From: Spirosoma validum
Lineage (GTDB): Bacteria; Bacteroidota; Bacteroidia; Cytophagales; Spirosomataceae
Direction: 5' to 3'
DNA length: 64,000 nucleotides
Assembly (NCBI RefSeq): GCF_014699035.1
Contig: NZ_JACXAA010000019.1
Location: 1-64,000, forward strand
Under the pieces are notes generated by a model that did not search any database, had not been told where the DNA came from, and saw only the letters and a list, made by a program, of their open reading frames with translations. Position 1 is the first letter of the stretch, and every line of letters starts with the position of its first letter. Of this stretch, positions 27,454 to 45,074 are shown piece after piece. A program made the position numbers and the translations under genes.

Positions 27454-27596
27454 ATAATGACAAGACTCCCACTCTTGGACTGGACTGAATTAGGTTGAGC
27501 GTGGGAGCTCTGGTTTTTGAAAAAGAGTACACTCAGGTCGCAGGGATCCAGTTGATCGTTTACGAATAATCCGCTCATTGATTACTGGAATAGACT

Positions 27597-28017
27597 ATGT
27601 ACCAAAAGCAAACGACTATTTTACTGACTGATGACGACCGCCCCGGCGGACCGTGACGATGATCGTTATTTCCTTCGTCGGGTTATGGAGAGTATCATTG
27701 GGGATTCGGAAATTCTGGAGGCTAAAAATGGTGAAGAAGCACTAGATCTACTAGGAAGACATCTCATTCAACTGGTCATCATGGATATGAACATGCCAGG
27801 ATTAAGTGGTCTGGAAACCCTGGCCTTTATTCGATCACAAAATCAGCCGTTTTCTATTCCTGTCGTCATGCTCTCCACCAGTGACCAGCCAGATTTAATC
27901 GCATTAGCTTATGCGAAAGGCATAAACTCCTTTATCAAAAAACCCGTGCGAGTAGGCGAATATGATCAGATTGCCTCGGCAATCAAAGTCTGTTTTCTTT
28001 CTCTCCCATTGGCCTGA
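27597..28017 (+). pseudogene. Frameshifted single-domain response regulator
   Basis: ATG at 27597 encodes MYQKQTTILLTDDDRPGGP and then a stop at 27654. This is the beta-1 strand and acidic pocket (DDD) of a receiver domain. The rest of the domain continues in the +1 frame from about 27650: DDDRYFLRRVMESIIG, phospho-acceptor in VIMDMNMPG, LSTSD and the conserved Lys in FIKKPV, ending at 28017. Together they form one normal-length receiver (about 135 residues) broken by a single-base shift between about 27640 and 27655. An internal ATG at 27631 would make a protein lacking beta-1 and the metal-binding acids. The shift may be real or a sequence error. Confidence 0.75.
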
Positions 28018-28124
28018 ACACTGAGGTATGAATGAGAAGCTATTTGTTTCTAAATCAGCATAAAAGCCAGTCGACAACGTAATTTCATCAGTACACATAA
28101 ATAACGACAATTCACTAACCAGGT

Positions 28125-29060
28125 ATGGACAACCGCATTTTAGGTCTTCATCATATCACGGCAATTGCCAACAACGCTCAACGCAATTACGATTTTTATA
28201 CTCATGTGCTGGGATTGAGGATGGTTAAAAAGACTGTCAACTTCGATGATCCTAGTACGTATCATTTTTACTATGGCAACGAAAACGGAACGCCCGGTAC
28301 CATCCTTACTTTTTTCCCCTGGGAGGGAATTGGGCCCGGTAAAAACGGCGTGGGTATGGCGACTGAAATCGGCTATTCCGTACCCATCGGAAGTCTGGAT
28401 AACTGGGCTGGACGATTTAAAGAGTTTGGCGTAACTACTAGTGAACAAGCGGAGCGGTTTGGTGAAACGTATTTGCCTTTTACTGACCCGGATGGGCTGT
28501 CAATTGCCCTGATTCAGCATTTGGACGAACGACCCGCCTGGGAAACGGAGGACATCAAACAGGACATGGCCACTCAGGGGTTTCATAGTGTTACGTTGAG
28601 CCTGCATAAAATTGAGGCAACCGCCCGCGTGCTGACCGATATTTTTGGTTATACCCTACAAGCCCAGGAAGGCAACCGTTACCGATTCATTACGGATGCA
28701 ATTCCGACAGCCTCAATTGTTGATTTGCTGGAAGAACCAGCCGGTTCAATAGGCAAGAATGCCGCCGGAACAAATCATCATGTTGCCTTCCGGGTCGCAA
28801 ATGAAACCATCCAGATGGAATTTCGGGAGAAGATTTTGAGCAAGGGGTTACAGATAACCCCCAAGATTGACCGGGATTATTTCTTCTCGCTCTATTTCCG
28901 CGAGCCTGGTGGCGTCCTGTTTGAAATTGCCACCGATAATCCCGGCTTTACAGTCGACGAGCCCCTGCAGGAACTAGGCAGTCATCTGAAACTCCCCAAG
29001 CAGTACGAATCCTCCCGGACACGTATTGAAAAAACACTTCCTGCATTGGCTTCACAATAA
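28125..29060 (+). CDS. Ring-cleaving dioxygenase, VOC/glyoxalase fold (MhqO-like)
   Basis: A 311-residue cytosolic protein with two vicinal-oxygen-chelate modules. The N-terminal part opens with LGLHHITAIANNAQRNYDFY and FDDPSTYHFYYG; the second part has GFHSVTLSLHKIEATARVL, NHHVAFRV and a metal-binding Glu in GGVLFEIATDNPGF. The His...His...Glu arrangement and the opening sequence are those of MhqA/MhqO/YkcA-type hydroquinone-specific dioxygenases, which detoxify quinones and aromatic electrophiles with a bound metal ion. It follows a broken receiver gene and precedes Dps, which supports a stress role. Exact substrate not shown. Confidence 0.92.
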   Translation: MDNRILGLHHITAIANNAQRNYDFYTHVLGLRMVKKTVNFDDPSTYHFYYGNENGTPGTILTFFPWEGIGPGKNGVGMATEIGYSVPIGSLDNWAGRFKEFGVTTSEQAERFGETYLPFTDPDGLSIALIQHLDERPAWETEDIKQDMATQGFHSVTLSLHKIEATARVLTDIFGYTLQAQEGNRYRFITDAIPTASIVDLLEEPAGSIGKNAAGTNHHVAFRVANETIQMEFREKILSKGLQITPKIDRDYFFSLYFREPGGVLFEIATDNPGFTVDEPLQELGSHLKLPKQYESSRTRIEKTLPALASQ

Positions 29061-29311
29061 GCAAAGAAATTTTTAACACCTATAAAACCTGTAGCCAGGC
29101 TTGAGGCTGGCCCATGACAGCTAAGGAAGGTAATCTATTATACGTTGCTGCCTGGTACAGCAACGTATTGGAATTTTCGAATCGTCTGGCTGAGTTTCTA
29201 GCTGAACGAATCTAATGGTTCATGCCAAATAACGTCTGCAGAATTACTTTAAAACCACACAAACGGTAATCCATTCAGTTTCCAAATTCAATTATCTAAA
29301 ATCCATCATTC

Positions 29312-29785
29312 ATGAAAACAAGTATTGGCATTTCGCCCGGAAATCGTGAAGTCGTTGCCCATGAGCTGGCTAAGTTACTAGCCGATGAGTTTGTTCTTTA
29401 TACGAAAACACTGAATGCCCACTGGAATCTGGAAGGCATGGACTTTCATTCGGTGCACCTTTACTTTGAGGACTTGTACAATCAATCGGCAGCGATCGTT
29501 GATGACGTAGCCGAACGTATCCGTCAGTTAGGTCATTATGCCCCGGCTACGCTAAAAAACTTTCTGCAACTAACCCACCTGACCGAGCAGGACGAAGATA
29601 ACAATGATAGCCGCAGCCTGATCAGGAAATTGTTGAGTGACCACGAGAGTATCATCGAATTTATTCGAGGGAACATTGACGAATTTGCTGATGCTCACAA
29701 CGATGCCGGTACGAGCGATTACATCACCGGCTTAATGGAGAAACACGAAAAAATTGCCTGGATGTTACGAGCGCATCTAAAATAG
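29312..29785 (+). CDS. Dps-family ferritin-like protein
   Basis: A 157-residue DNA-protection protein. The family's inter-subunit ferroxidase residues are visible: LNAHWNLEGMDFHSVHLYFEDLYNQ contains the H-W-N...D-F-H...F-E...Y pattern, and IVDDVAERIRQLG follows as the second helix. The late KHEKIAWMLRAHL matches the fourth helix. Dps forms a dodecamer that stores iron, consumes hydrogen peroxide and can coat DNA. No long basic N-terminal tail is present, so DNA binding may be weak. The MaoC-like gene follows 35 bp downstream. Length is normal for the family. Confidence 0.93.
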   Translation: MKTSIGISPGNREVVAHELAKLLADEFVLYTKTLNAHWNLEGMDFHSVHLYFEDLYNQSAAIVDDVAERIRQLGHYAPATLKNFLQLTHLTEQDEDNNDSRSLIRKLLSDHESIIEFIRGNIDEFADAHNDAGTSDYITGLMEKHEKIAWMLRAHLK

Positions 29786-29820
29786 GCAGTATTTAAAACT
29801 ATGTAATCGAGCAAATAAAC

Positions 29821-30318
29821 ATGGAACCAGGCGTTATTAAGACCAAGTCATTTGACCCGAGTTCGTACTTGGTCGTTCCGGCTAAAACGTTTGAAGATCT
29901 ACGAATTAGCGATGTGTTTCGTGCACCGAGCCGTACCTTAACGGATGCCCATGCATCGGCCTTTCAAACAGTTTCCTGCGACAATCATCCGGTTCATTAC
30001 GATGTCGAATGGGCGCGCAGACATGGGCATACCGCACCGGTTGTCCACGGGCTGCAAGTGCTGGCCTTTACGGCCCCGGGTGCGACTTTGTTTCCGCACT
30101 ATATCGGTGACGTGTTTATCAGTTTTAGTGAGGTATCCTGCCAGTTTTTGAAAGAAGTCCATTCTGGAGATACCTTATATTCCTCTCTGGAAATTACAGA
30201 TCTCATTCCCCAAGGTGCGACTGGCTTAGTTGTAACGGCCGCAACAGTTCATAATCAGCGAGGTGAGCTTGTACTGTCTGGACAACATAAGTACTTACTA
30301 CGTACCCAAAACGTATAG
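29821..30318 (+). CDS. MaoC-like hot-dog hydratase
   Basis: A 165-residue MaoC/(R)-hydratase-like protein. The hydratase signature is present as D-N-H-P-V-H-Y-D (SCDNHPVHYDVEWARRHGH), followed by APVVHGLQVLAF, which forms the substrate tunnel wall, and the central hot-dog helix. The Asp and His of the motif are the catalytic dyad that adds water across enoyl-CoA or related double bonds. A preceding YLVVPAKTFEDLRISDVF segment and SFSEVSCQFLKEVHSGDTL complete the domain. It probably acts on acyl-CoA or a mesaconyl-like acid; the substrate is not clear. It is followed by a strong terminator. Confidence 0.88.
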   Translation: MEPGVIKTKSFDPSSYLVVPAKTFEDLRISDVFRAPSRTLTDAHASAFQTVSCDNHPVHYDVEWARRHGHTAPVVHGLQVLAFTAPGATLFPHYIGDVFISFSEVSCQFLKEVHSGDTLYSSLEITDLIPQGATGLVVTAATVHNQRGELVLSGQHKYLLRTQNV

Positions 30319-30416: not shown

Positions 30417-30573
30417 GTCATTAGCATGTTAGGAAAAACTGTACTGGCGACCCCAAGCAATTAAACGGCAAGAGAACTGGTAATCTCAATCTAAAATAAG
30501 ATCGAATCGGCTCCTTACATGTAATGAACAATGAAACAAAAACTCCAAAGCCTACCTCCAAATAGTATGGACT

Positions 30574-30590
30574 CTCCAGTTTATTTGGAT
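30574..30590. promoter_or_regulatory. Enhancer-type site (UAS) for sigma-54 activator, copy 1
   Basis: CTCCAGTTTATTTGGAT matches the 17-mer CTCCAGTTTTTTTGGAG at 39374-39390 in 15 positions and keeps the CTCCA-N7-TGGA inverted arms. It lies about 87 bp upstream of a sigma-54 promoter (30678-30693). Further CTCCA half-sites at 30543 and 30555 suggest a small array. The likely binder is the NtrC-type activator at 37078, by proximity and shared use. Confidence 0.6.
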
Positions 30591-30677
30591 ATAGCCTTTA
30601 AAATTACCTAGTACATATATAATTGATAATCAATAATATACATTATTTCGCTACCTATACTTGAGTAACATATAGAC

Positions 30678-30693
30678 TGGCACTTTATTGGCA
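30678..30693 (+). promoter_or_regulatory. Sigma-54 promoter upstream of AraC gene
   Basis: TGGCAC-N5-TGGCA fits the -24/-12 consensus TGGCAC-N5-TTGCA with one mismatch, keeping the essential GG and GC. It sits 54 bp before the ATG of the AraC-family gene at 30747 and downstream of the CTCCA-N7-TGGA site. The spacing between the GG and GC pairs is the required one. Confidence 0.65.
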
Positions 30694-30746: not shown

Positions 30747-31664
30747 ATGAAACGTAGCATCCAGCATGAACTCCTGACTATTCAAGTCGTTGAAACAAGC
30801 CAATGGACTTACCCAATTCATGACCATAATCACTTTGAACTAATCCTGATTCGAACCGGCAGTGGGCAACACATAATTAACGGAAACCGATTTACCTACC
30901 AGGCTGGAGATGTGTTCTTACTGGGGCCTTTAGACAACCATTATTTTGTGGTTGATAGAATAACCTGCTTTTGCTCACTCTCCTTCACCGAACTGTATAT
31001 GAGGGGACTAATGACACCAGGAACAGATTGCTGGCCACAAATTACAGAAAGAGGACAGACGGCAAGCCAGCAACTCGCGGGAAGTCTCATTGCAGACCGT
31101 ATCGAGCAACAAAATCTAAATGCGCTTGTCGGGATAGTTTTAACGGAACAGAATAACCACCGACCACTGGTTTCTAACCAAATCGTTGAAGCACTAATGA
31201 AAACGATTCTGAGTTTACTTGATCGTCAGCTCAGTCAGCATCAGCGGTTAAGTTCAACGAACGTTAGTTCTTCATCGCTGATGCAACGAATTGGTGTGTA
31301 TATCTGCCATTATATTACCATGCCAGAGCACCTGCGCATGGAAAAAATGGCTGATGTGTTCAATTATTCCCAAAGCCATTTGGCCGCCCTGTTTAAACAA
31401 CAGGCCGGGGAATCCATCAGTCAGTACATTATCCGGTATAAGCTTCAACTGGTTGAAACACGGTTGCGATTGAGTGGTATGAGTATCTCGCAGATAGCTG
31501 ACGAATTTGGCTTCACTGATATCTGCCATCTTAACAAGTTATTCAAACGGTATTACCAAACGACGCCCACAGAGTACCGGCGAAGCTTACTCGTTCCTAA
31601 CCGGGTCAGAAATACATATTTACAATCTTCATTCAATTTATCACCACAGCTTACCCATTCATAA
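30747..31664 (+). CDS. AraC-family transcriptional regulator
   Basis: A 305-residue AraC regulator. The N-terminal half is a cupin-like sensor domain (YPIHDHNHFELILIRTGSGQ, AGDVFLLGPLDNHYF). The C-terminal about 100 residues hold two helix-turn-helices (LRMEKMADVFNYSQSHLAALFK and MSISQIADEFGFTDICHLNKLFK) ending in the family signature RYYQTTPTEYRR. Its ligand is unknown. Upstream it has a sigma-54 promoter and a CTCCA-N7-TGGA enhancer site, so its expression probably depends on the NtrC-type activator encoded 7 kb away. A DsbA-like gene follows in the same direction 110 bp later. Confidence 0.9.
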   Translation: MKRSIQHELLTIQVVETSQWTYPIHDHNHFELILIRTGSGQHIINGNRFTYQAGDVFLLGPLDNHYFVVDRITCFCSLSFTELYMRGLMTPGTDCWPQITERGQTASQQLAGSLIADRIEQQNLNALVGIVLTEQNNHRPLVSNQIVEALMKTILSLLDRQLSQHQRLSSTNVSSSSLMQRIGVYICHYITMPEHLRMEKMADVFNYSQSHLAALFKQQAGESISQYIIRYKLQLVETRLRLSGMSISQIADEFGFTDICHLNKLFKRYYQTTPTEYRRSLLVPNRVRNTYLQSSFNLSPQLTHS

Positions 31665-31773
31665 AGTAAAGATCAGTTTATGGTCATGCTAGTGTTAGCT
31701 ACTCAACTTGAGTGTAAACAGCATTTTGCTTATCGTACGCGTATTCTCACTGATCTACTTCATTCCTATTTTT

Positions 31774-32361
31774 ATGAATGCTATTTTCGACACTTTTCCC
31801 GTCTCAACCGATTCTGTTACAGGGGCAGTAGAGCTCGTTGAATATGGTGATGCCTTATGCTATGGAAGCCAACATATTAGAAAAGCTATCTGCAATATAC
31901 TCGACCAATTTCAAGGTCAACCGTTTACGTATTCGTACCGCCATTATCCCAATCCAGCAAATGATCAATCATTACTAGCCGCCATGGCTACCGAGGCAGC
32001 CAAGCGTCAAGGGAAATTCTGGTTAATGCATAACGCTCTATTTATTCAACCGCTTATCAATTGCTCTGTTCTGGCCGCTCTGGCCTCAGCCTTAGAGCTG
32101 GATCTATCCCGGTTCCTGCATGATTTGGTGGACGATAGCTTATACGATCTAATTAAAACGGATTGGCGAATAGGCTATCAGTTAGGAGTCCGCTACCCAC
32201 CCACTCTGTTTATTGGCGGCCAATTATTTCATGGTAAACCAACTCAGGCTCGCTTGGCACCAATTGTTCAGTCTCATTTAAGCCATTTCAGGCTATCCGT
32301 TTTAAATACAGTCGATCAAAAGAGCGGAGTGGTGCATTGGGGCGGGAATGAATTTGGTTGA
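31774..32361 (+). CDS. DsbA-like thioredoxin-fold protein, single active-site Cys
   Basis: A 195-residue thioredoxin-4/DsbA-fold protein. GAVELVEYGDALCYGSQH corresponds to the DFQCPYC active-site loop of NhaA-C-terminal-type and DsbA-type proteins, but the second cysteine is Ser32 (C29-Y-G-S), leaving one redox cysteine. The helical insert (NDQSLLAAMATEAAKRQGKFWLMHNALF) and cis-Pro loop (RYPPTLFIGGQLFHG) are typical. No signal peptide is seen with this start; a TTG at 31708 would add a hydrophobic segment and cannot be excluded. A monothiol exchange or glutathione-type role is inferred. It may be expressed with the AraC gene. Confidence 0.8.
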   Translation: MNAIFDTFPVSTDSVTGAVELVEYGDALCYGSQHIRKAICNILDQFQGQPFTYSYRHYPNPANDQSLLAAMATEAAKRQGKFWLMHNALFIQPLINCSVLAALASALELDLSRFLHDLVDDSLYDLIKTDWRIGYQLGVRYPPTLFIGGQLFHGKPTQARLAPIVQSHLSHFRLSVLNTVDQKSGVVHWGGNEFG

Positions 32362-32423: not shown

Positions 32424-34769
32424 CTACATTTGATAAACCAATTTTTCTTCAGTAAACGTAAGACTGATCTGCACCCCATTCATCTGGTTGATTTGCAGCT
32501 TTCCACCAAGTTGTTTGCTGAGCCCCCGAATCAGGCTCATGCCCAGCGTGCGACTTCGGTTCGGGTTTAAATCAGGAGGAAAACCCACGCCATCATCACT
32601 GATTGTGAGCTTGTATGTTTGTTGGCCCACTACCGTAAGTTCAATAGAGATACTTCCTGTTTGATCGGACGGGAAAGCGTACTTTAGCGAATTGGTAACG
32701 ACTTCATTTAGAATAAGCCCCAATGGCACCGCCAGAATGACATCAATATTAACAGGCGTAATGGCCATTTTTTTGATGACGGTATCCTGTCGGGCAAACG
32801 TAGCAAGCAAATAATCGACGATTTCCTCGATGTACTCCGCCATTGGAATCGTAGCTATTCGGTCCGATTGGTAGAGTTTCTGATGGATTAACGCCATAAC
32901 GTGCACCCGGTTCTGACTCTCCTGAATCGCAGAAAGAGCAGCTTTATCTTTCAAATACACACCCTGAGAATTGAGTAAGCTAGTGATAATCTGGAGGTTA
33001 TTTTTGACTCGGTGATGAATCTCTTTGAGCATCCACTCTTTTTCTTCCAGCAGGCCTTCCTTTTCATCCAGCAGATTATCTTTCTCGTTCAGAATAGACT
33101 GAAGCGTTTCATTTTTCTGATTGATTTCAAGCTGTTTGGCTTCCAGCAGTTTATTGCTACGTTGTTTTAATCGGTACTGATTATAACTGACTCCTAGCAA
33201 ACCTAATAATAAAAAGGTCCCCGCTAATATGCTATTGCGCGTTGTTTTTGCTTGGTCCAGTTCATGCTGCTGACGCTGTATCTGCTGCACTTTTTGGGCC
33301 GTAGCATAGCGCACTTCTACTTCAGCGAGTTGCCTCGTTTTTGCTACATTAAAAATGCTGTCATTCAACATTTTATGCAGCCTGAAATGGTTGATGGCCG
33401 ACAAATAATTTCCCTCCGTAGAGTCCACTTTATAGAGCATAAGATGAACATCCTTTATCGTTGACAAAGAGTTTTTCAACGGGAAATAGCTCAGCGACTT
33501 TCGAAGGTAGAAACCGGCAATTTTGTACTTGTTGCGCTTTAGATAAAACTGGCCAACATCCACCTGCACTTTTTGTGACATCTCGAAATCCCCACCCGAC
33601 CGATTATACCAGTCAACGGCTTCCAGATAGTATTTTTCTGCCAGAAAATAATTTTTCAAATTATCATAACAGCACGCTAATGCCTGCGCAACGCAGCCTT
33701 TTTGAATATTGTTAATGGGCTTGATTTCGCGGACGAGGTCTGCGATTAAACGAAGCCCTTCTTTTGATTTGTGATGCGCTACTAAATCCTGAACAACGTG
33801 GTAAGCGGCATTGTACAATGAAAAGTTAGGTAGCTTTTCATAACGCCATTGCTGGAGTGTTTTTTTATACCAATAGTTACTTTCATTCGGCTTATTTAAA
33901 TCCCCGTATATTTCTGCGACAGTGCCATAAAAAGTAGCTGCCGACAGCGTGTCCTGTGTCTGGTTCATGCTCCCCAGGCACTGTAGGGCATAATACAGCG
34001 CTTTATCGTAATTTCCTTTTAACCGATTTACACTGGCTAAACTGCTATAGATATAGTGTAATCTGGGGTACTTTACCGCTTTGTATCGGTTCAATACGTT
34101 AAGAAAATTTTCTTCTGCCAGGTCCAGATGACCAAGATCCTCATGGAGGGAGGCAATCTGTTCGGCCATCTGAATTTCTTTTTCCTGCCTGTTCAGTTCT
34201 TTGTAGAGTGTTTCAGCCTGATTATAGTACGAAAAAGCAGCCGGGTAATCGTTAACGATATAGCGTAAACAGGTGGCGAATCGATAGTTAGCATCGGCTT
34301 CCGTTTCTTTATCTCCTGTTCGCCGACAGTCGTCAATCAGTTTGGTGAAATGTTCCTTTCCCATTTGAACATTGCCCCCTTCTATGTACGCTACGCTCAG
34401 CAAACTTTCCACGTTGTGCTGCGCTTTTGGCAAATGCAATTTTTTGCCTAAATCGTTAGCCTCGTTCAAGTAGGTGATTGCACTGTCTAAATCCGTTTTG
34501 ACCTCGCCAGCTTTGTAGATATGAAACTTACCAAGTTCAATCAAGGCAGTAAGCCGGGATGTATCAGCCGTACTTTTCTCCAGCCTGACCATTAGTTGAT
34601 TGGCCATCTTTCGGGTAATATTTTGACCCGAAGTGAGTGAAGGCAGTACTAGTTGACAGGCAATCCAAAGTAAACCTGGCCAACCAGTTTTTGCTGAATA
34701 TCCGCCCGCCAATTTATTCACTCGTTGAAAAAGGAGTATCCAGGTAGACATCAATCTTGTTCGTTTCAA
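32424..34769 (-). CDS. TPR-domain sensor histidine kinase (HisKA_2)
   Basis: A 781-residue sensor kinase. An export-like hydrophobic stretch near residues 25-45 (GLLWIACQLVLPSLTSGQ) precedes about 400 residues of tetratricopeptide repeats, then one transmembrane helix (NSILAGTFLLLGLLGVSYNQ), a coiled coil with repeated DEKEGLLEEKE, and a HisKA_2 dimerisation domain with phospho-acceptor in EIHHRVKNNLQIITSLL (near residue 584). The HATPase follows with LILNEVVTNSLKYAF and SDDGVGFP. It is third in an operon: its start lies 3 bp from the stop of the gene at 34773, a close paralogue. Both probably phosphorylate the sigma-54 activator at 37078. Confidence 0.92.
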   Translation of the reverse strand: MKRTRLMSTWILLFQRVNKLAGGYSAKTGWPGLLWIACQLVLPSLTSGQNITRKMANQLMVRLEKSTADTSRLTALIELGKFHIYKAGEVKTDLDSAITYLNEANDLGKKLHLPKAQHNVESLLSVAYIEGGNVQMGKEHFTKLIDDCRRTGDKETEADANYRFATCLRYIVNDYPAAFSYYNQAETLYKELNRQEKEIQMAEQIASLHEDLGHLDLAEENFLNVLNRYKAVKYPRLHYIYSSLASVNRLKGNYDKALYYALQCLGSMNQTQDTLSAATFYGTVAEIYGDLNKPNESNYWYKKTLQQWRYEKLPNFSLYNAAYHVVQDLVAHHKSKEGLRLIADLVREIKPINNIQKGCVAQALACCYDNLKNYFLAEKYYLEAVDWYNRSGGDFEMSQKVQVDVGQFYLKRNKYKIAGFYLRKSLSYFPLKNSLSTIKDVHLMLYKVDSTEGNYLSAINHFRLHKMLNDSIFNVAKTRQLAEVEVRYATAQKVQQIQRQQHELDQAKTTRNSILAGTFLLLGLLGVSYNQYRLKQRSNKLLEAKQLEINQKNETLQSILNEKDNLLDEKEGLLEEKEWMLKEIHHRVKNNLQIITSLLNSQGVYLKDKAALSAIQESQNRVHVMALIHQKLYQSDRIATIPMAEYIEEIVDYLLATFARQDTVIKKMAITPVNIDVILAVPLGLILNEVVTNSLKYAFPSDQTGSISIELTVVGQQTYKLTISDDGVGFPPDLNPNRSRTLGMSLIRGLSKQLGGKLQINQMNGVQISLTFTEEKLVYQM

Positions 34770-34772
34770 AAG

Positions 34773-37067
34773 TTATGCACTAATCAAAGCTGGCTGAACT
34801 ACCTTTTCGGCCGTAAATGTCAGACTAATCTGGACCCCATTTAGCTGATTGATTTGCAGTTCGCCACCCAGTTGTTTGCTAAGCCCCCGTATGAGGCTCA
34901 TGCCCAGCGTGCGACTTCGATTTGGATTCAGATTAGTTGGCAGTCCAATGCCATCATCGCTGATCAACAGCCAGTAGTCCTGGTAATCAAGCCGTTTGAG
35001 TTCAATTTGAATGTTGCCACTTCGCCCCGAAGGAAATGCATATTTCAGTGAGTTCGTAATAGCTTCATTAATGATAAGGCCAAGGGGAACAGCCAGCGTA
35101 ACATCCAGGTCGACCGGCGAAACGTCAATCTGCTTATTGATACTTGCTCTTATATCAAATGTACCCATCAGGTAGTCAACGATTTCGGCGATATATTCGG
35201 CCATTGGTATACTGGACAACCGGTTTGATTGATACAGTTTCTGGTGGATGAGGGCCATGGCATGAACCCGATTCTGACTTTCCCGAATAGCCGCCAGCGC
35301 TGCCTGATCTTTAAGGTAAGTGGATTGGGAGTGAAGCAAGCTGGTGATGATTTGCAGGTTGTTTTTCACCCGGTGGTGAATCTCCCGAAGCATCCATTCA
35401 CGTTCCCGGAGTAACTGTTCCTGATCAATGACAGCTTTTTGAAGGGATTCATTTTTCTGATTAATCTCAATCTGTTTGGCTTCCAATAGTTTGTTACTAC
35501 GTTGTTTAAGATTATAGCGATTGACGCTTAGTCCTAATAATAATAATAGCAAGATCGTACCGACAACAATACTATTTCGAGTCATAAGCGCCTGTTGTAA
35601 CTTCGTTTGTTGTACTAAGCTTTGCTCCGTTAATAATTGAATATTCTGTTGACTTAGTTTTAAATTCTGATCTTTCTTTTCACTTTCAAACTCAATTTCT
35701 AACTGCGCGATCTGTCGGCTTTTTGTGGTATTTAACAAGGAGTCCTGCAAGGCTTTATAGCGCTGGTAATGCTGAATAGCGGAGAAGTAATTGGCCCGGG
35801 TCGAATCCAGTCTGAACCATTGTAAATGATTTTTAGCCAGCGCCATGATCGATCCATTCAACTGGCATCGCGACTCATTTAGGGCCAGATAGCGACGGGC
35901 CTGCTGAAACTGACCGCTCTTGATCAAGAAGTTGATAACGGCTTGATAAATCCGGGCACGCCCTAAACTTCCTATTCCCCTTTTGGCCAGTAAATCCAAT
36001 GCCTGACCACAGTACGCCTGAGCTTGTTTAAACTGATTTAACTCGGTATAAATCGAAACAAAACGAAAGTCGACTAGCAGCTGACTTTCCGCTGATGTTG
36101 GTGGATACTGTCGAGACTTTTGCTGTAAATAGCGAAGAGCTTCCCAAGGCTTATGCTGTTGAAGTAACAAATCGGACAGGTTGCCCACCAGGTGGAGGAT
36201 ATAGGCATTATTAGCATGCTTTAACGCGATGGCCAGCGATTTCTGAAAATAGATTTTTGCCTGTTTAAACTGGCCTAGTCCATAATAGGTGAGCCCAACC
36301 CGGTTGTAAATGGTACAAATTGACAGCGAACTGTCTTTACCTGCTTCAGCGGCTCTAACGGCCATCAGGCCAAAGGCAAGGCCTTCTTTATAATCACCAA
36401 GCTTGGTTGATACAAAGCCGAGCAGATCATACACCATCGCTAAATCGGTGTGGCCAATGGCTCGGAATAACGCAAGGGCACTCTGCAACTCAGTCAGGGC
36501 TAGCGCATAATTTTCCTGTATCTGATGAAGATCAGACAGTTCCTTATACATATCGGCCTGTTTCACTCTATCATCCGCCTGTATAAAATAGCCAAGTGCT
36601 TTCTCGTAGTAGTGAATCTTTTTGGGTAACTCCTCCCCTTCCAGCGTATAAAAACGGGCTTGATTCATGTACACATAACCAAGCTGCTTCCCTTGGTTAT
36701 GTCTGAGGAAAAAATCGATTGCCTGCTTGGCATAATTTCTGGCCTTTAGCGTGTCTCCTTTTTCCAGCCAGATTAGGAACGAGGTATACGAAGCTTCGCC
36801 CATCCCGCCCTGATAATGCAATGACTGACTCAGCTTATTGGCCTGTTGACTCATCTGGAGAGCTGTGTCTAAATCATGCGCTTCTTCTCCTGGTTTTAGA
36901 ACGTAGCACTGACTTAGTTGTAACAGTACGTTCACCCGATTGGTATCCGGTTTACTAACGGTCAACACCCGTTGTAAACTGTCAATCTGGGAGGCAGACC
37001 ATTGGGCTTTAGTAGATATGGTTAAGAGCATCCCTAGCGCCAGGAAAATGTACTGCTTCATAGGCAT
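34773..37067 (-). CDS. TPR-domain sensor histidine kinase (HisKA_2)
   Basis: A 764-residue paralogue of the next kinase in the operon. A signal peptide (MPMKQYIFLALGMLLTISTKAQ) leads into periplasmic tetratricopeptide repeats (about residues 60-430), a transmembrane helix (NSIVVGTILLLLLLGLSVN) after a coiled coil, and a cytoplasmic HisKA_2/HATPase kinase with REIHHRVKNNLQIITSLL (near residue 562), LIINEAITNSLKYAF and SDDGIGLP. Only 10 bp separate its start from the upstream activator gene, so transcription is shared. Pairing of HisKA_2 kinases with an NtrC-type regulator, rather than a LytTR regulator, is noteworthy. The stimulus is unknown. Confidence 0.92.
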   Translation of the reverse strand: MPMKQYIFLALGMLLTISTKAQWSASQIDSLQRVLTVSKPDTNRVNVLLQLSQCYVLKPGEEAHDLDTALQMSQQANKLSQSLHYQGGMGEASYTSFLIWLEKGDTLKARNYAKQAIDFFLRHNQGKQLGYVYMNQARFYTLEGEELPKKIHYYEKALGYFIQADDRVKQADMYKELSDLHQIQENYALALTELQSALALFRAIGHTDLAMVYDLLGFVSTKLGDYKEGLAFGLMAVRAAEAGKDSSLSICTIYNRVGLTYYGLGQFKQAKIYFQKSLAIALKHANNAYILHLVGNLSDLLLQQHKPWEALRYLQQKSRQYPPTSAESQLLVDFRFVSIYTELNQFKQAQAYCGQALDLLAKRGIGSLGRARIYQAVINFLIKSGQFQQARRYLALNESRCQLNGSIMALAKNHLQWFRLDSTRANYFSAIQHYQRYKALQDSLLNTTKSRQIAQLEIEFESEKKDQNLKLSQQNIQLLTEQSLVQQTKLQQALMTRNSIVVGTILLLLLLGLSVNRYNLKQRSNKLLEAKQIEINQKNESLQKAVIDQEQLLREREWMLREIHHRVKNNLQIITSLLHSQSTYLKDQAALAAIRESQNRVHAMALIHQKLYQSNRLSSIPMAEYIAEIVDYLMGTFDIRASINKQIDVSPVDLDVTLAVPLGLIINEAITNSLKYAFPSGRSGNIQIELKRLDYQDYWLLISDDGIGLPTNLNPNRSRTLGMSLIRGLSKQLGGELQINQLNGVQISLTFTAEKVVQPALISA

Positions 37068-37077
37068 TAATAAGCGA

Positions 37078-39207
37078 CTAATTCATGTCTGACGAGTTGC
37101 TTGGCGGCTGAACGGAAAGGACTTTTCGAATCCCCAGTTTTTCCATCCGATACTCGAGTGTAGTAGGTTTCAAGTTCATTAATTCAGCGGCTCCACCACT
37201 TCCCCGAATTCGCCCATTTGTTTGTTTAAGAATTGCCAGGATGTATTCCCGTTCCGTTTCCTGCTGAATCTGTTTAACATCCTGTAAATCCTTTGGCGTT
37301 GAATTCCCCAATTTAAAACTGGTATCAGGTTGAATCATGATCTCTGACATCGTCATAGAGAATAAGCTATTGATCAATGGGCGACCCAGCGTTAGCGGTG
37401 ATTGACCGTCATTAATAATGACAGCCTGTTCAATCACATTTTCTAATTCCCGGATATTACCTGGCCAACTGTAATTGATTAGCTCATTCAATACCGCTTC
37501 GCTAATCCCATGAAAGGGTTTTCCTAATTTGCGGGCCGATCGTTGGGCGAAAAATTGGGCCAAGAGGGGTATATCGCCAGGTCGTTCCCGTAAGGTTGGC
37601 AAGGTGATGGGAAACGTAGCTAATCGAAAATACAGATCCATCCGAAAACGCCCTTCGGCTACCTCTTTTTCCAGATGTCGGTTGGTGGCAGCCACAATGC
37701 GCACATCCGTTTTAATGAGCGTTTTGCCACCGACTCGCTCGATCTCCTTTTCCTGGAGTACGCGCAGGAGTTTAGCTTGTAATTCGAGGGGCATCTCTCC
37801 TACTTCATCCAGAAAAATAGTGCCGCCCTGCGCCAGTTCAAACTTACCGATCCGTTTCTCAAAAGCACCCGTAAAAGCGCCTTTTTCGTGACCAAAAAGT
37901 TCCGATTCAATCAGGTTTGCCGGTAGTGTCGCACAGTTGATTTTTACCAAGATTTTGTCTTTCCGTGATGATAGATTATGAAGCGCCCGGGCTATAAGCT
38001 CTTTTCCAGTGCCACTCTCGCCTAATATAAGCACCGTCGTATCGGTATTGGCTACCTGAGTAACCTGGTCAAAAACACGTAACAGGCGTTGGCTTCGACC
38101 AATGATTTCCTCAAAATTGGCCAATGTTTTTACCTCTTCCTGCAAATAGTTGTTTTCCCGTTTTAGCTGCTCACTCAGTCGGGCAACTTCCTCAAAGGCA
38201 AGAACCCGCTCCAGCATTAATACAATCGGTTGTTCTAGCCGCTCCAATAACCGAAGATGTCTGGAATGATAGGTATCAGGCTTACGACTCAGAAAAGAAA
38301 TAGAGAACTTATCCGCTACCCCCACGGTAAAGGGCATTACTAAGGCCGATTCAAGTCGGAACGCTTTGGCCAGCATCTGTCCAAGGCGATTCTGTTTGCA
38401 GAAAATACTAAACGTATCCTCCGTATAGCGCACTGGGCCTACAGGCACTTGTTCATCCTGAAACTGGAGCAGTTGCTCAACTGTCGTGTTCGTCATCTGC
38501 TGGAGATCAGTCAAACTAATGGTTTGATACTCCTCAAAGCCGACTCGGTAGTAATTGAAACACTGCGTTGTGCCTTTCTTTTGGTATTGAATCGATAAAA
38601 AATCGAACGGCACTTGCGACTGAAGAACCATCGCTGCGTTCAGTAGCCTTTGCTCCCAACTTCCGGGAGCCGACAGCGCATCGGTCAGGGCAATCTGAAG
38701 CGCTTTTTCTTCCCGAAGTTTGATTTCAACACTATGCGCATGCCGGTATCGACTGATTTCCAGGGTAGTAAGAATATCTTTTTCCCGAAATGGCTTAACT
38801 ATATAGCCAATCGGCTGCGTAGCTTTTACCGCTTCCAGTACGCTTTTATTGTCGTTGGCAGATATATAGATAAACGGAATGCTGAGTTCTTCCAGTTGTT
38901 TCGCCAGGTCTATGCCCGTTTCTTTTCCCTTCAGGTAAATATCAAGCAATACGATATCGGGCTTTTGCTGGGCCATAATCGCTAAGGCTTCATCAACGGA
39001 GTCGGCAACGCCAATGACCGGATAGCCTGCTTCATCCAGAATAAGCTCCAGATCATTTGCGATAATGTATTCATCTTCAACAATTAAAATCTTGCAGGCC
39101 GAAGTTAGAGAAAGAGGAGGGTTGACTGGTGATTGCATAGTCCGAAATGAGTTAGAGGATAGCATTGACCGCGTTTTCATTTGCTTACAAGAAGTATTCC
39201 CATTCAA
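37078..39207 (-). CDS. NtrC/FhlA-type sigma-54 activator: REC-GAF-AAA-HTH
   Basis: A 709-residue bacterial enhancer-binding protein. Receiver domain about residues 38-155 with phospho-acceptor Asp89 (IVLLDIYLKG); a GAF-like region about 180-350; a coiled-coil linker; an AAA+ domain from about 375 with Walker A GESGTGKE, ELFGHEKGAFTGA (the sigma-54 contact loop) and Walker B GGTIFLDEVGEM; and a C-terminal Fis-type HTH (GSGGAAELMNLKPTTLEYRM). ATG at 39138 (MQSPVNPP) is an alternative start. It leads a leftward operon with two TPR kinases. Two sigma-54 promoters with a common upstream palindrome lie at 30.6 and 39.4 kb on either side, the natural targets. Confidence 0.95.
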   Translation of the reverse strand: MNGNTSCKQMKTRSMLSSNSFRTMQSPVNPPLSLTSACKILIVEDEYIIANDLELILDEAGYPVIGVADSVDEALAIMAQQKPDIVLLDIYLKGKETGIDLAKQLEELSIPFIYISANDNKSVLEAVKATQPIGYIVKPFREKDILTTLEISRYRHAHSVEIKLREEKALQIALTDALSAPGSWEQRLLNAAMVLQSQVPFDFLSIQYQKKGTTQCFNYYRVGFEEYQTISLTDLQQMTNTTVEQLLQFQDEQVPVGPVRYTEDTFSIFCKQNRLGQMLAKAFRLESALVMPFTVGVADKFSISFLSRKPDTYHSRHLRLLERLEQPIVLMLERVLAFEEVARLSEQLKRENNYLQEEVKTLANFEEIIGRSQRLLRVFDQVTQVANTDTTVLILGESGTGKELIARALHNLSSRKDKILVKINCATLPANLIESELFGHEKGAFTGAFEKRIGKFELAQGGTIFLDEVGEMPLELQAKLLRVLQEKEIERVGGKTLIKTDVRIVAATNRHLEKEVAEGRFRMDLYFRLATFPITLPTLRERPGDIPLLAQFFAQRSARKLGKPFHGISEAVLNELINYSWPGNIRELENVIEQAVIINDGQSPLTLGRPLINSLFSMTMSEIMIQPDTSFKLGNSTPKDLQDVKQIQQETEREYILAILKQTNGRIRGSGGAAELMNLKPTTLEYRMEKLGIRKVLSVQPPSNSSDMN

Positions 39208-39373: not shown

Positions 39374-39398
39374 CTCCAGTTTTTTTGGAGAACTCCAG
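39374..39398. promoter_or_regulatory. Enhancer-type site (UAS) for sigma-54 activator, copy 2
   Basis: CTCCAGTTTTTTTGGAG (39374-39390) is a perfect 5-bp inverted repeat with a 7-bp spacer, directly followed by another AACTCCAG half-site (39391-39398). The same element occurs at 30574-30590. It lies about 126 bp upstream of the sigma-54 promoter at 39517. Further down, ATCGATCAC occurs twice 14 bp apart (about 39415-39440), which may be an additional factor site. Confidence 0.65.
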
Positions 39399-39516
39399 AT
39401 TAAAAACTACTACTGATCGATCACTAAAAATCGATCACGGCAAATTATCGATTGACACTGAGGAATTTGAATCGATGTATAGGATCAAATTCCTGGTTTA
39501 CGAATAGCTCAAAGGC

Positions 39517-39532
39517 TGGCACTCACCTTGCT
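39517..39532 (+). promoter_or_regulatory. Consensus sigma-54 promoter
   Basis: TGGCACTCACCTTGCT matches the -24/-12 consensus TGGCAC-N5-TTGC exactly. Transcription would start near 39544, just before the ATG at 39563. It lies downstream of the CTCCA-N7-TGGAG site, in the divergent region facing the activator operon at 37078-39207. The frame to its right extends back through this promoter, but the gene start is placed after it. Confidence 0.75.
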
Positions 39533-39562
39533 AGGGAGTATGGATATACAGTTCACCTTAGT

Positions 39563-40036
39563 ATGCTTATGGCCAATCCCAAGCCAATTATCGAGGTTGT
39601 TTATGGTGTTTTTGCCGATAACAATTTAAGTCGGATACTGCCTGTACTGGATGAGAAAATCGTACTTTATAGTTCTGAGTATGGACCTGCCGGTCTTGAA
39701 TACCACGGTAGAAGCGGTTTCATAACAATGATGTCAAGGCTATACGCAATTTGTGAGAACCTCAGCGTGAACTCTCTTGTCTATTACAGCCCTGATGACG
39801 ATCAATTGCAGGATACCATCATTACAACCGGCTTTTTTAAAGGTAAACTTCTGATAGATAACGAACTAGCCGTTTTGCCTTTTGTGCATTACTGGCAACT
39901 AAAAGATAATCGAGTGCTTAGGCTAAGGGCGTTCAGTTGGGATTCCGCTAAGCTGCTCAATCGGTTGCAACAGGCGAATATAGGGCCAAATCTTCCGTCA
40001 AACGGGCATCATAATGCTGGTAACGGTACCCAATAA
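39563..40036 (+). CDS. SnoaL-like (NTF2-fold) small protein
   Basis: A 157-residue cytosolic protein with an NTF2/SnoaL-like pattern: an N-terminal helix (IIEVVYGVFADNNLSRILPVL), strand DEKIVLYSS with a central YHGRSGFITMMSRL helix, and a closing beta-sheet with HYWQLKDNRVLRLRAFSWD. SnoaL-like proteins are small ligand-binding or enzyme-like domains; function here is unknown. The frame opens at 39452, but the sigma-54 promoter at 39517-39532 places the start at ATG 39563 (or 39569). It is 25 bp upstream of the antiporter gene, so the two form a sigma-54-dependent unit. Confidence 0.72.
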   Translation: MLMANPKPIIEVVYGVFADNNLSRILPVLDEKIVLYSSEYGPAGLEYHGRSGFITMMSRLYAICENLSVNSLVYYSPDDDQLQDTIITTGFFKGKLLIDNELAVLPFVHYWQLKDNRVLRLRAFSWDSAKLLNRLQQANIGPNLPSNGHHNAGNGTQ

Positions 40037-40061: not shown

Positions 40062-41642
40062 ATGCATCCACTTGAAACGGTTCTTCTGTTACTGATTTTT
40101 GTCATTGGGCTGGCCCTGATTGCCCGGCGGCTCAATCTGGTCTTCCCGATCGTACTAACGGTAGGTGGCCTGGTCATTGGCTTTATTCCGGGTTTGCCAA
40201 ATGTCGGCTTGGATTCGTCGGTTGTGCTCCTTGTCTTTTTACCACCTATTCTTTATAGCGCAGCCTGGTATACGAACTGGAGCGACTTTCGCCGGAATTT
40301 AGAACCCGTTGTCGTGCTCGCATTAGGTCTGGTAGTGGCTACCAGTATAGGTATCGCTTACATAGCTCAATCGTTTATTCCAGGCTTTACGCTAGCCACG
40401 GGCTTATTACTGGGAGCCATCGTCTCGCCTTCCGATGCTGTAGCGGCTACGGCGATCATGAAGACCCTGGCTGTACCTCGAAAAATTGTGGCCATTCTGG
40501 AAGGTGAGAGCCTGGTTAATGACGCGACGGCTTTAGTCATCTTTCAGCTGGCACTAGCGACCATGAATTCTGGGCGTTTTTCCTTAACTGACTCACTGCT
40601 AGATTTCGTCCGGTTAGCGGGGGGTGGTATTGGTGTAGGGCTGCTTATTGGCTACTTATCCTACTGGCTGCATAAACATGGCAATCTGGAATCCGCCCTG
40701 GAAACCGTGCTGACGTTTGTGACGGCCTACTCGGCTTACATAGCGGCCGAACAACTTCATTTAAGTGGAGTGCTCAGTGTAGTTACGGCAGGATTATTAT
40801 TAGGCCATAAACAATCGAGGGTACATAGCCCCACTACGCGGATGCAGGCGGTTGCGGTTTGGGATTTTGTGGTTGTCTTGTTGAATGGGCTTATCTTTAT
40901 TTTAATTGGGTTGCAATTGCCGCACGTTGTGGCCTCTATCAAAGGTCAGTCGCTGGGGCAACTCGTTTGGTTTGGCTTGCTTATTAGTTTGACCGCGGTT
41001 GCTATTCGCTTCCTGGGCATCTTTTTAGCCGATACGGTTTCTACCCAGGTACGAAAGGGTTGGCATCTTCCTCCCGTATTTCCTTCCTACAAACACACAA
41101 CCTTGTTAGCCTATATCAGTATGCGGGGTATTGTCTCACTGGCGGCTGCCCTATCGATTCCAGAACGACTACCCAATGGCCTTCCCTGTCCGGGCCGAAA
41201 TCTAATCCTGTTTATTACGTTTTGCGTGATTCTGTTTACGCTGGTTGGGCAGGGAAGTCTACTTCCTATGGTTATCCGGGCCTTACAATTTGGGCAGCAG
41301 TCTACCGACTATCTTTCCCGACGGGAAATACGCAAACGACTTTCCCAAAAAGCGCTGGCCGTGATTCATCGTGTAGTTAGTAAAGAAGGGCTTGTTGGAG
41401 ACACAGTCCAGGAAATCATCGACCGGCATCAGGAGCGCGTGGATGACCTTGAACGGGGAGATTCTGAAAAGACGCTATCTCAACATCAACTCAGCCAGAA
41501 ACTGACTCTATCATCTATACAGGCGCAACGGTCTGAGTTATTAACCTTACGCGACGCCCAACTGATTGATGTCGACTTGTTTCATGAATTGGAAAACGAA
41601 CTGGATCGGGAAGAGATTCAATTGAAGGTCATCGATGCTTAG
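40062..41642 (+). CDS. Na+/H+ antiporter, CPA1/NhaP type
   Basis: A 526-residue polytopic cation/proton antiporter. About 12 hydrophobic segments occupy residues 1-420, with the family signatures FLPPILYSAAW, GAIVSPSDAVAATAI and LEGESLVNDATALVIF, whose acidic residues bind and exchange the cation. A cytoplasmic tail from about residue 425 (RREIRKRLSQKALAV) is charged and helical. Such proteins export Na+ (or K+) in exchange for H+, adjusting pH and osmotic balance. It is downstream of a SnoaL-like gene under a consensus sigma-54 promoter, so the neighbouring NtrC-type system may control ion homeostasis; this is inferred. Confidence 0.94.
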   Translation: MHPLETVLLLLIFVIGLALIARRLNLVFPIVLTVGGLVIGFIPGLPNVGLDSSVVLLVFLPPILYSAAWYTNWSDFRRNLEPVVVLALGLVVATSIGIAYIAQSFIPGFTLATGLLLGAIVSPSDAVAATAIMKTLAVPRKIVAILEGESLVNDATALVIFQLALATMNSGRFSLTDSLLDFVRLAGGGIGVGLLIGYLSYWLHKHGNLESALETVLTFVTAYSAYIAAEQLHLSGVLSVVTAGLLLGHKQSRVHSPTTRMQAVAVWDFVVVLLNGLIFILIGLQLPHVVASIKGQSLGQLVWFGLLISLTAVAIRFLGIFLADTVSTQVRKGWHLPPVFPSYKHTTLLAYISMRGIVSLAAALSIPERLPNGLPCPGRNLILFITFCVILFTLVGQGSLLPMVIRALQFGQQSTDYLSRREIRKRLSQKALAVIHRVVSKEGLVGDTVQEIIDRHQERVDDLERGDSEKTLSQHQLSQKLTLSSIQAQRSELLTLRDAQLIDVDLFHELENELDREEIQLKVIDA

Positions 41643-42767: not shown

Positions 42768-45074
42768 ATGAAGGAATTAATCGGTTCGGCTGTGGGATCA
42801 ATCGGTAAAGGCTTTGTTGCCGAAAAGAAAAACGTATTGACGATTTCATTTGTCCTTTTCTGTACGCTGAATACAATCGGTCAGAATATAAACCGCCAAC
42901 AGGTAAATCGGCTCTTGATTCAATTACAAAAAAGTAGAGCAGATGAAAGCAGAATTCATAGTTTAGTCGAGCTGGGCAAGTTTCACATTTATAAACCAGG
43001 GGAGACAAAAATTGATTTGGATAGTGGCCTTACCTATTTACATCAGGCTAAAAAACTAAGTGATTCACTCCATTTAGTCAGATGGCAACACGAGGTAGAA
43101 AGTATGTTGGTAATCGCCGACATGGAAGGGAAAAATCATGAGCTTGGTCAATTACGATTCCGTCGACTACTAGATGAATGCCAGCGGACAGGCGATAAAC
43201 GAACAGAAGCTGTAGCCAGATTTAGAAACGCCATTTGGTTAAGAAATGTAGACAAGGAGTACAGCCATGTAATTAGCCAATTTGTCCAGGCAGCAACCCT
43301 TTACCGATCCTTAAACGATCAGAAAAATGAAATCTTAGCGCTAAAAGAAATTGCCGTTACGTATTTAATTCAGGGAGATAATGATATTGCGGAGGCCCAA
43401 TTACTGGATGTATTGAAGCGATACAAAGCCATTAACTACCCAAAGCTCCATGACATCTATAATTTGTTAGCTGTCGTTGCCCGGTTGAATGGCGAGTTAA
43501 ATAAAGGGCTTCTGTACTCACTCCTATGCATTGACAATATGAGCGAGACGGGCGATACAACCTCAGCGGCTACGTACTATGGTGATCTTGCCAAAATTTA
43601 TATAGAAATAGGAAACTATGGCAAAGGAATGGAATGGTATAGGAAATCGCTTACCAAATGGAGACAGGAGCGACAGCCTAATTACGCCCTCTACAACACG
43701 GCAGGGGTTATTAGCCAGGATCTTATTGCTCACCACAAACCCCAGGAAGCATTACGTTTAATTAACACCCTCGTCAACGAAATACCGACTAATACGATGA
43801 TTCAAAAAGGGTGTGTTGCTCAGAATCTAGCGTACTGTTACGAAGCACTCTATAATTATCCGTTAGCGGAAAAATATTACCTGGAAGCCATTAGCTGGTA
43901 TAACAGAAACAAGCTGGACTCTGAAAAGGCTCAAAAAGCACATCAAGATATAGGATCGTTTTATTTCAAGCAGAAAAGATTGACTAAGGCAAGCTATCAT
44001 TTAGAAAAAGCCTTGAGCATTCTGCCACAGAAAAACGCCCTGCTGACTGTTCGAAACATTCATTACATGCTCTTTAAGATCGACTCCATTCAAGGTAATT
44101 ACCTGTCGGCCATCGGCCATTTTCGTCAACATAAAGCTATAAACGACTCGCTTTTTAACGAAACAAAAAGTAAGCAGATTGCCGGTCTGCAAATTCAATA
44201 CGATACCCGCCAAAAAGAACAAAACATTGAGTTGCTTACCAAACAAAGTAAACTACAGCAAAGCGAACTGAAACGAGGGCAATCTACCCGTAATGGCATT
44301 ATAGCTGCCAGTCTGTTGCTGGCTGGCCTGCTGGGTGTGAGTTATAACCAGTTCCGACTAAAAAAACGTAGTAACCAGCTCCTCCAGACCCAACAAATAG
44401 AGATTAATCAGAAGAACCAGTCGTTGAGCCAGCTTCTGGAAGAAAAAGAGTGGATGCTCAAAGAGATTCACCACCGGGTTAAAAATAACCTTCAGGTCAT
44501 CACCAGTCTGCTCAATTCGCAATCAAGCTTTTTGCACGACTCAACGGCGCTGGCGGCTATTCGGGAAAGTCAGAATCGGGTGCACGCCATGGCCCTCATC
44601 CACCAGAAACTGTATCAATCCGATAATCTGGCCCTAATCGATATGCAGCAGTACATCTGCGATATACTTGATCACCTTATAGACTCATTTAATCGACAGC
44701 ATTCGGTGCAGAAACAAGTAAGCATCTCGACTATCCAACTGGATGTCACATTGGCTACTCCGTTGGGGTTAATCATTAATGAGGCTGTTACCAATTCGTT
44801 AAAATACGCCTTTCCCGAAAACCGTCCGGGTACAATTTCAGTCAGTTTCCGTTCGCTGGAAAATCAGGGTTACTTGCTAACGATAACGGATGATGGAATT
44901 GGCTGGCCCACTGGGTTTAACGCGAAGCAGAATAAAACACTGGGTCTGTCTATGATTCGAGGATTGAGTCGGCAAATTGGAGGCCGGCTGGCTATAAGTC
45001 AGCACGAAGGTGTACACATTAGTTTGGAATTCAGTCAGACGAAAAAGGTATCAAGCGGACGAGATGTTGCTTGA
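42768..45074 (+). CDS. TPR-domain sensor histidine kinase (HisKA_2)
   Basis: A 768-residue kinase closely related to the two at 32424 and 34773, on the opposite strand. An N-terminal hydrophobic export segment (VLTISFVLFCTLNTIGQ, about residues 23-40) precedes tetratricopeptide repeats (about 60-440), a transmembrane helix (NGIIAASLLLAGLLGVSYNQ), and the HisKA_2/HATPase kinase with KEIHHRVKNNLQVITSLL (near residue 566), LIINEAVTNSLKYAF and TDDGIGWP. No response regulator gene is adjacent, so it may feed into the NtrC-type activator at 37078 or an unlinked partner. The high similarity suggests duplication. Confidence 0.92.
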   Translation: MKELIGSAVGSIGKGFVAEKKNVLTISFVLFCTLNTIGQNINRQQVNRLLIQLQKSRADESRIHSLVELGKFHIYKPGETKIDLDSGLTYLHQAKKLSDSLHLVRWQHEVESMLVIADMEGKNHELGQLRFRRLLDECQRTGDKRTEAVARFRNAIWLRNVDKEYSHVISQFVQAATLYRSLNDQKNEILALKEIAVTYLIQGDNDIAEAQLLDVLKRYKAINYPKLHDIYNLLAVVARLNGELNKGLLYSLLCIDNMSETGDTTSAATYYGDLAKIYIEIGNYGKGMEWYRKSLTKWRQERQPNYALYNTAGVISQDLIAHHKPQEALRLINTLVNEIPTNTMIQKGCVAQNLAYCYEALYNYPLAEKYYLEAISWYNRNKLDSEKAQKAHQDIGSFYFKQKRLTKASYHLEKALSILPQKNALLTVRNIHYMLFKIDSIQGNYLSAIGHFRQHKAINDSLFNETKSKQIAGLQIQYDTRQKEQNIELLTKQSKLQQSELKRGQSTRNGIIAASLLLAGLLGVSYNQFRLKKRSNQLLQTQQIEINQKNQSLSQLLEEKEWMLKEIHHRVKNNLQVITSLLNSQSSFLHDSTALAAIRESQNRVHAMALIHQKLYQSDNLALIDMQQYICDILDHLIDSFNRQHSVQKQVSISTIQLDVTLATPLGLIINEAVTNSLKYAFPENRPGTISVSFRSLENQGYLLTITDDGIGWPTGFNAKQNKTLGLSMIRGLSRQIGGRLAISQHEGVHISLEFSQTKKVSSGRDVA

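Follow-up and report, generated by a model that had tools for sequence, protein, structure and literature searches.

The window analysed here, 64,000 nucleotides in length, belongs to one contig of the 8.22 Mb genome of Spirosoma validum (phylum Bacteroidota), and a set of 36 genomes was used for comparison within the genus Spirosoma. A leftward operon (32424-39138) encodes two histidine kinases and a sigma-54 activator. It diverges from the genes of an NTF2/SnoaL-like protein and a Na+/H+ antiporter, and at its other end it converges with an AraC-DsbA-like gene pair (30747-32361). The genes on both sides are preceded by an array of CTCCA/TGGAG half-sites, an IHF-like element and a -24/-12 element (Table 1).

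Table 1. Genes and DNA elements of the sigma-54 module, in window coordinates.
Feature	Position	Strand	Basis or remarks
Upstream activator array B: three CTCCA + TGGA	30543..30589	+	kept in 7/7 aligned species, also in G015
IHF-like element TTGATAATCAATAATATA	30623..30640	+	consensus scan, alignment
Second -24/-12 element TGGCACTTTATTGGCA	30678..30693	+	8/8 orthologues; predicted start ~30704
AraC-type regulator, second target	30747..31664	+	Pfam HTH_18, HTH_AraC, AraC_binding
DsbA/thioredoxin-like protein behind AraC gene	31708..32361	+	Pfam Thioredoxin_4, E=5.1e-6; 3/8 orthologous loci
TPR-HisKA_2 histidine kinase HK1	32424..34769	-	8/8 orthologous loci
TPR-HisKA_2 histidine kinase HK2	34773..37067	-	intact in 4/8 orthologous loci
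Sigma-54 activator: REC, AAA+ with GAFTGA, HTH_8, recognition helix KPTTLEYR	37078..39138	-	Pfam, translation
Upstream activator array A: CTCCA-N7-TGGAG + third CTCCA	39374..39397	+	13/24 columns invariant, 8 species
IHF-like element TTGACACTGAGGAATTTG, between array and promoter	39452..39469	+	10/11 consensus positions; putative IHF site
-24/-12 element TGGCACTCACCTTGCT	39517..39532	+	GG 39518-39519, GC 39530-39531; predicted start ~39543
NTF2/SnoaL-like protein, first gene of target operon	39569..40036	+	profile, fold search
CPA1 Na+/H+ antiporter, second gene	40062..41642	+	Pfam Na_H_Exchanger; TIGR00831

The leftward operon had been said in an earlier note to encode a GAFTGA-containing activator, and this was confirmed. 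The protein was matched by Sigma54_activat (241.5 bits), Response_reg (70.9 bits) and HTH_8 (21.2 bits, just below the cut-off of 22), and GAFTGA was read in the translation. It has the features of NtrC-type bEBPs, namely an AAA+ domain with GAFTGA, a REC domain and a Fis-type HTH. The listed open reading frame runs to 39207 from a TTG; the start is probably ATG 39138. The best NCBIfam match is FhlA, the formate hydrogenlyase activator (NF011958), with 411.8 bits over the AAA+/HTH part. An assignment as FhlA equivalog was rejected, since the score is far below the cut-off of 830 bits. A further difference is the REC domain of the activator, and the scanned neighbour genes gave no match to formate hydrogenlyase families. 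Both kinases carry TPR, as the note had claimed, and HisKA_2, but they are not equally constant: HK1 is present at every orthologous locus and HK2 is intact at half of them, being a fragment in G031. A third TPR-HisKA_2 kinase is encoded at 42768-45074, beyond the antiporter gene and that of an alpha/beta hydrolase, and the array scan listed no half-site array before it. RpoN itself is encoded in this genome (PF04552 at G000:C33:686879-687355, 187.8 bits). Its DNA-binding domain was found as a single copy in 35 of the 36 genus genomes, the missing genome being 82% complete, and the RpoN box ARRTVAKYR is intact at all four loci inspected, which come from relatives.

The protein encoded next to the SnoaL-side promoter was shown to have an NTF2 fold by profile match (3grd, E=4.2e-8) and by Foldseek (3grd, E=4.5e-8, probability 1.00; AF2 model with mean pLDDT 77), which agrees with its earlier description as SnoaL-like; its Pfam SnoaL_2 match (E=0.011) lies below the family cut-off. 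The gene does follow the promoter, but the conserved start codon is ATG 39569, not ATG 39563 as first proposed. The antiporter was likewise confirmed (TIGR00831, 365.6 bits against a curated cut-off of 279.6). Compared with other CPA1 antiporters, it is distinguished by its position, since an NTF2-like gene and a sigma-54-type promoter precede it in 6/8 loci.

Orthologues of the activator, 77-88% identical, were found in seven relatives, each with the SnoaL-like gene divergent. Among the eight orthologous loci, the SnoaL-like gene, HK1 and the AraC gene are constant (8/8), the antiporter is the second gene in 6/8, HK2 is intact in 4/8 and the DsbA-like gene follows AraC in 3/8. At L040 the gene after the SnoaL-like gene is on the opposite strand, and no antiporter match was found in the 19 kb of L041. 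The SnoaL-like profile matches 11 of the 36 genus genomes at E<=0.001. Nine of these matches are strong (E<1e-60); they come from G018 and from the eight genomes that carry the orthologous activator. The antiporter had been proposed as the sigma-54 target. Because the SnoaL-like gene is the constant partner, this is better put as control of the NTF2-like gene, with the antiporter in a presumed operon behind it.

At the SnoaL side, the two DNA elements of the earlier note were found as described. The -24/-12 element TGGCAC-N5-TTGCT is exact, and the palindrome that had been placed about 125 bp upstream (CTCCAGTTTTTTTGGAG, 39374-39390) lies 126 nt from the -24 box, with the additional CTCCA at 39393-39397. 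In the eight-species alignment of this intergenic region, 91 of 430 non-coding columns are invariant; against this background, invariant columns are in excess in the -24/-12 element (9/16, P=0.0018), in array A (P=2.5e-4) and in the IHF-like block (12/18, P=2.6e-5; scored at 39451-39468, one base off the element). Three blocks are conspicuous between the array and the SnoaL-like gene, namely the CTCCA array, TTGACAATGAGGAATTT and TGGCA...TTG. In all eight species, this one included, TGGCAY in the GG-N10-G register and at least two half-sites precede the SnoaL-like gene. Array A is partly degraded in two relatives (CGTAG for TGGAG in G031; the third CTCCA absent from G023). The promoter had been described as a perfect consensus, which holds for this genome; the perfect -12 box is, however, not the conserved feature, as TTGCT occurs here only and all seven aligned relatives have TTGAT. 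Two further features of this region were observed. A perfect 10-bp inverted repeat, AGGAATTTGA...TCAAATTCCT (39461-39470/39485-39494, 14-nt spacer), overlaps the IHF-like element and is, by eye, not perfect in the aligned relatives. A block at 39186-39204, upstream of the activator start, is as conserved as any in the region (11/16 columns invariant) and may be the promoter or leader of the activator operon.

The earlier picture of a single promoter was correct for the SnoaL side but missed half of the module, as an array and a -24/-12 element also precede the AraC gene. Relative to the GG-N10-GC consensus, which 39517-39532 matches exactly, the AraC-side element has one mismatch to TGGCAC-N5-TTGCW and keeps GG and GC. 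This arrangement is kept in 7/7 aligned species and in 8/8 with G015; TGGCA and TTGG are invariant in the seven, and the -12 dinucleotide in relatives is GC or GT. With an array and a promoter before both the SnoaL-like and the AraC genes, the two outward ends of the module follow one design. Ahead of the AraC gene, a run of genes at 26668-30318 encodes an alpha/beta hydrolase, a single REC domain, a glyoxalase, a Dps-like ferritin and a MaoC-like protein, and open reading frames with similar starts recur at L072 (G015).

The SnoaL, AraC-A, AraC-B and hydrolase groups have an extended element, YTGANNNTCARNNNNTTR, between array and promoter, with its start 35-65 nt ahead of the TGG. The IHF consensus is WATCAANNNNTTR, which the right half of the extended element resembles. 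In four of the five promoter groups, 0 of 300 shuffles reached the group score of YTGANNNTCARNNNNTTR, a consensus drawn up with all groups already in view; all eight AraC-B rows were included in this test. The SDR-D promoters do not have the element (159/300 shuffles reach their score). With the plain IHF consensus, most results between array and promoter in these groups lacked significance, in a test that covered 2 of the 8 AraC-B rows.

Counts of the promoter string gave little. In the whole genome, the exact -24/-12 string was found 4 times against 4 in the reversed control, and a looser form 26 times against 24. The string alone is therefore no better than chance, and genome-wide counts were rejected as evidence. 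In the window, 39517-39532 is the sole exact TGGCAC-N5-TTGCW, and matches with up to two mismatches were fewer than expected (22 against a shuffled mean of 34.4). The perfect palindrome with a spacer of N6 or N7 was counted 7 times genome-wide against 3 in the reversed control; five of the other six copies are inside open reading frames and one is between two convergent ones. Across the genus, TTGGCACN5TTGNT was found 213 times against 110 in the control. This excess was rejected as a general consensus, as its clearest part is one element, TTGGCAC-N3-ATTTG, often before PadR-like genes (37 rows against 9.4 expected, among the 150 matches listed). As a separate observation, this element (TTGGCACNNNATTTGNW) had 58 matches across the genus against 4 in the reversed control (L269-L298, e.g. 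L272:1501-1517). The next open reading frame is PadR-like by its start at 14 of 30 loci, mostly 44-60 nt downstream, with PadR confirmed by Pfam for L272 only. The element fits GG-N10-G and is a candidate sigma-54 or housekeeping promoter. A poorly chosen pattern for GA promoters near start codons gave 3 matches. Genus scans for an array with TGGCA gave many chance-looking matches among those listed; the AraC and paralogue loci were conspicuous by inspection.

The same CTCCA/TGGAG half-sites were found in non-coding DNA adjoining paralogous activators elsewhere in the genus. Downstream of 56 array orientations, TGGCAY was present in 43, against 4.8 expected from dinucleotide shuffles, and TGGCAY in the GG-N10-G[CTA] register in 39, against 0.8 expected, counts in which orthologues are not independent. 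The 56 were picked by hand from the array listing, with L072 added; the selection excluded arrays oriented toward the activator gene, the remaining clusters of two half-sites, several of the clusters at L046/L050/L051 and the duplicates L229-L232. Regions of 330 nt (SDR-D) or 180 nt (all other groups) were searched, and sites with GG at -12, such as TGGCACACTTTTCGG before a DsbA-like open reading frame at L051, did not enter the count. The -12 dinucleotide of the 39 in-register sites is GA in 22, GC in 11 and GT in 6. Misses in register comprise the alpha/beta-hydrolase group (4/4), the kinase-facing sides (4/5 and 2/2), L051 (3/3), one side of L052/L053 (2/2), L048 of the L047/L048 divergent pair, and L228. 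In group abH-C, TGGCAY is present at 3/4 loci and the GG-N10-G register at 0/4, and the TGGCAY of L062 lies elsewhere than the aligned TGGTAC. The distance from array to -24 box is 57-126 nt in most groups and about 260 nt in SDR-D. Before the DsbA-like genes of L042-L048, an array and TGGCAY-N5-TTGA were found in 7/7, with 106-107 nt between the final half-site and the promoter. The activators of a second group (L221-L228; 837-874 aa) are divergent from AraC-type genes, with which they share an array; the single member that was scanned has REC, GAF and AAA+. Array and TGGCAC precede these AraC paralogues in 7/8.

The arrays were also linked to one type of activator. The C-terminal helix is mostly KPTTLE in activators with arrays, and PPTTLN or similar in many without. 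Arrays are present at 31 of 35 loci with a KPxTLE helix and at 2 of 18 without (Fisher P=4e-8, for loci that are not independent). This automatic count placed L059 (KPNTLE) among those without the helix; corrected by hand it becomes 32/36 against 1/17, with L046 and L051 overlapping. The exceptions are L049, L060, L144 and L146, with KPxTLE and no arrays, and L151, with clusters and no KPxTLE. Control 5-mers of the same composition gave a mean of 0-0.26 clusters per locus. L049 has a SnoaL-like gene with TGGCATATCTGTTGAT and the helix KPSTLE; it has CCCCAA/TTGGGG repeats instead of CTCCA half-sites (L049:11281-11336, by eye), and its IHF-like element is upstream of these repeats instead of in the interval from the repeats to the -24 box. 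This single case might reflect a co-change of helix and site. No palindrome was found beside the distant homologues L141-L153 (Chitinophaga, Flavobacterium, Mucilaginibacter and others); L151, an Acidobacteria MAG, has two half-site clusters.

It is highly probable, judging from these comparisons, that the locus is a sigma-54 two-component module in which the activator binds both arrays and drives the two flanking promoters. In this model, the TPR-HisKA_2 kinases would phosphorylate the REC domain of the activator, and its HTH_8 domain would bind the CTCCA/TGGAG arrays at two places flanking its own operon. Bending at the IHF-like element would then bring the AAA+ ring to RNA polymerase-sigma-54 at 39517-39532 and 30678-30693. 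Promoter one would express the NTF2/SnoaL-like protein and the Na+/H+ antiporter, and promoter two the AraC regulator, here with the DsbA-like protein. As the second promoter would make a regulator, it is proposed that the first response also launches a second regulatory tier. The model builds on direct observations: the DNA elements, their conservation and spacing, their co-occurrence with one activator type, and the presence of RpoN. Both transcription starts and the physiological signal are predictions. A role of the target operon in stress response is at most plausible, given the neighbouring Dps-like ferritin, glyoxalase and alpha/beta-hydrolase genes.

Could the array instead act as operator for the leftward operon, to which the activator gene itself belongs, with TGGCAC incidental and the SnoaL-like gene read from a housekeeping promoter? 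Array A does lie between the two divergent genes, about 235 nt away from the start of the activator, and the lack of genome-wide enrichment of the -24/-12 string would fit. Such autoregulation is nevertheless quite improbable: an array and -24/-12 element of this kind also precede the AraC gene, which is convergent with the operon, at a distance of about 8.5 kb from the start of the activator, TGGCAY follows the array toward the SnoaL-like gene in 8/8 species, and on the activator side the -24/-12 pattern was unmatched within 225 nt of the array at the eight loci. It is less probable still that another regulator, such as the AraC protein, binds the arrays and that the sigma-54 activator acts at other sites. 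AraC proteins often bind repeated half-sites, and the arrays adjoin AraC genes in both groups. Against this, arrays are also present beside activator paralogues that face DsbA-like, SDR or hydrolase-like genes, a search with the window's AraC protein gave no match in the 19-kb loci L042-L065 at E 1e-8, and the arrays track the HTH helix of the activator.

The -12 box raises a different question, namely whether GA is inactive in the relatives and a working promoter was gained only in this species through C. That TTGCT is found here alone and TTGAT in the seven aligned relatives gives this some room, yet it remains unlikely. GA is kept over orthologues and is the commonest -12 dinucleotide among the 39 array-linked sites, and is thus probably functional. 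A 2025 PSSM survey of sigma-54 regulons gives the consensus as TGGCACN5-7TTGCT and, where it discusses its own method, describes it as limited for promoters that deviate from consensus, with E. coli xapBp3 among those missed (PMC12316311). This validated promoter (TGGCAA-N6-ACGAT) has no GC at -12, so that such a -12 box has precedent.

The sigma-54 module preferred here resembles known NtrC-type bEBP systems with UAS, IHF site and -24/-12 promoter in its REC, AAA+ GAFTGA and HTH domains, its single RpoN, its upstream array and, as a putative IHF site, the IHF-like element that lies between the two in four of five groups, from array to promoter. It differs in its CTCCA/TGGAG half-sites, its TPR-HisKA_2 kinases, the position of both targets flanking the signalling operon, and a -12 box that is often GA or GT. 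The word 'antiporter' occurs 0 times in the main text of the 2025 survey, which is weak evidence on how usual such a target is (PMC12316311). A search of open-access papers found no sigma-54 literature on Spirosoma and none linking HisKA_2/tetratricopeptide kinases and response regulators in Bacteroidetes. The core of the earlier note, a sigma-54 promoter with an array beside its cognate activator, was upheld by the genus-wide comparison, while target, kinase constancy, -12 box and module extent had to be revised. Sequence comparison thus gives good support to a module that is real, conserved and well explained, and that would be a rather ordinary type of switch.

Of most interest beyond this are the many sites with GA or GT at -12, together with one half-site common to several paralogues. 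Tentatively, and with less than even confidence, the sigma-54 promoters of CTCCA activators may form a class in the genus, mostly with G-A or G-T at -12 and with a half-site shared by paralogues, from which the SnoaL-side promoter has drifted to the textbook consensus. The counts suggest that scans demanding TTGC at -12 would overlook the majority of array-linked sites in the genus, as 28 of the 39 are without GC. What the genus offers is a complete and testable sigma-54 circuit of activator, half-site, two promoters and IHF-like element, kept in eight species and echoed by paralogues. If the wider class is real, kinases at different loci could cross-regulate common stress genes, among them DsbA-like, AraC, NTF2-like/antiporter and SDR/NDH-2 genes.
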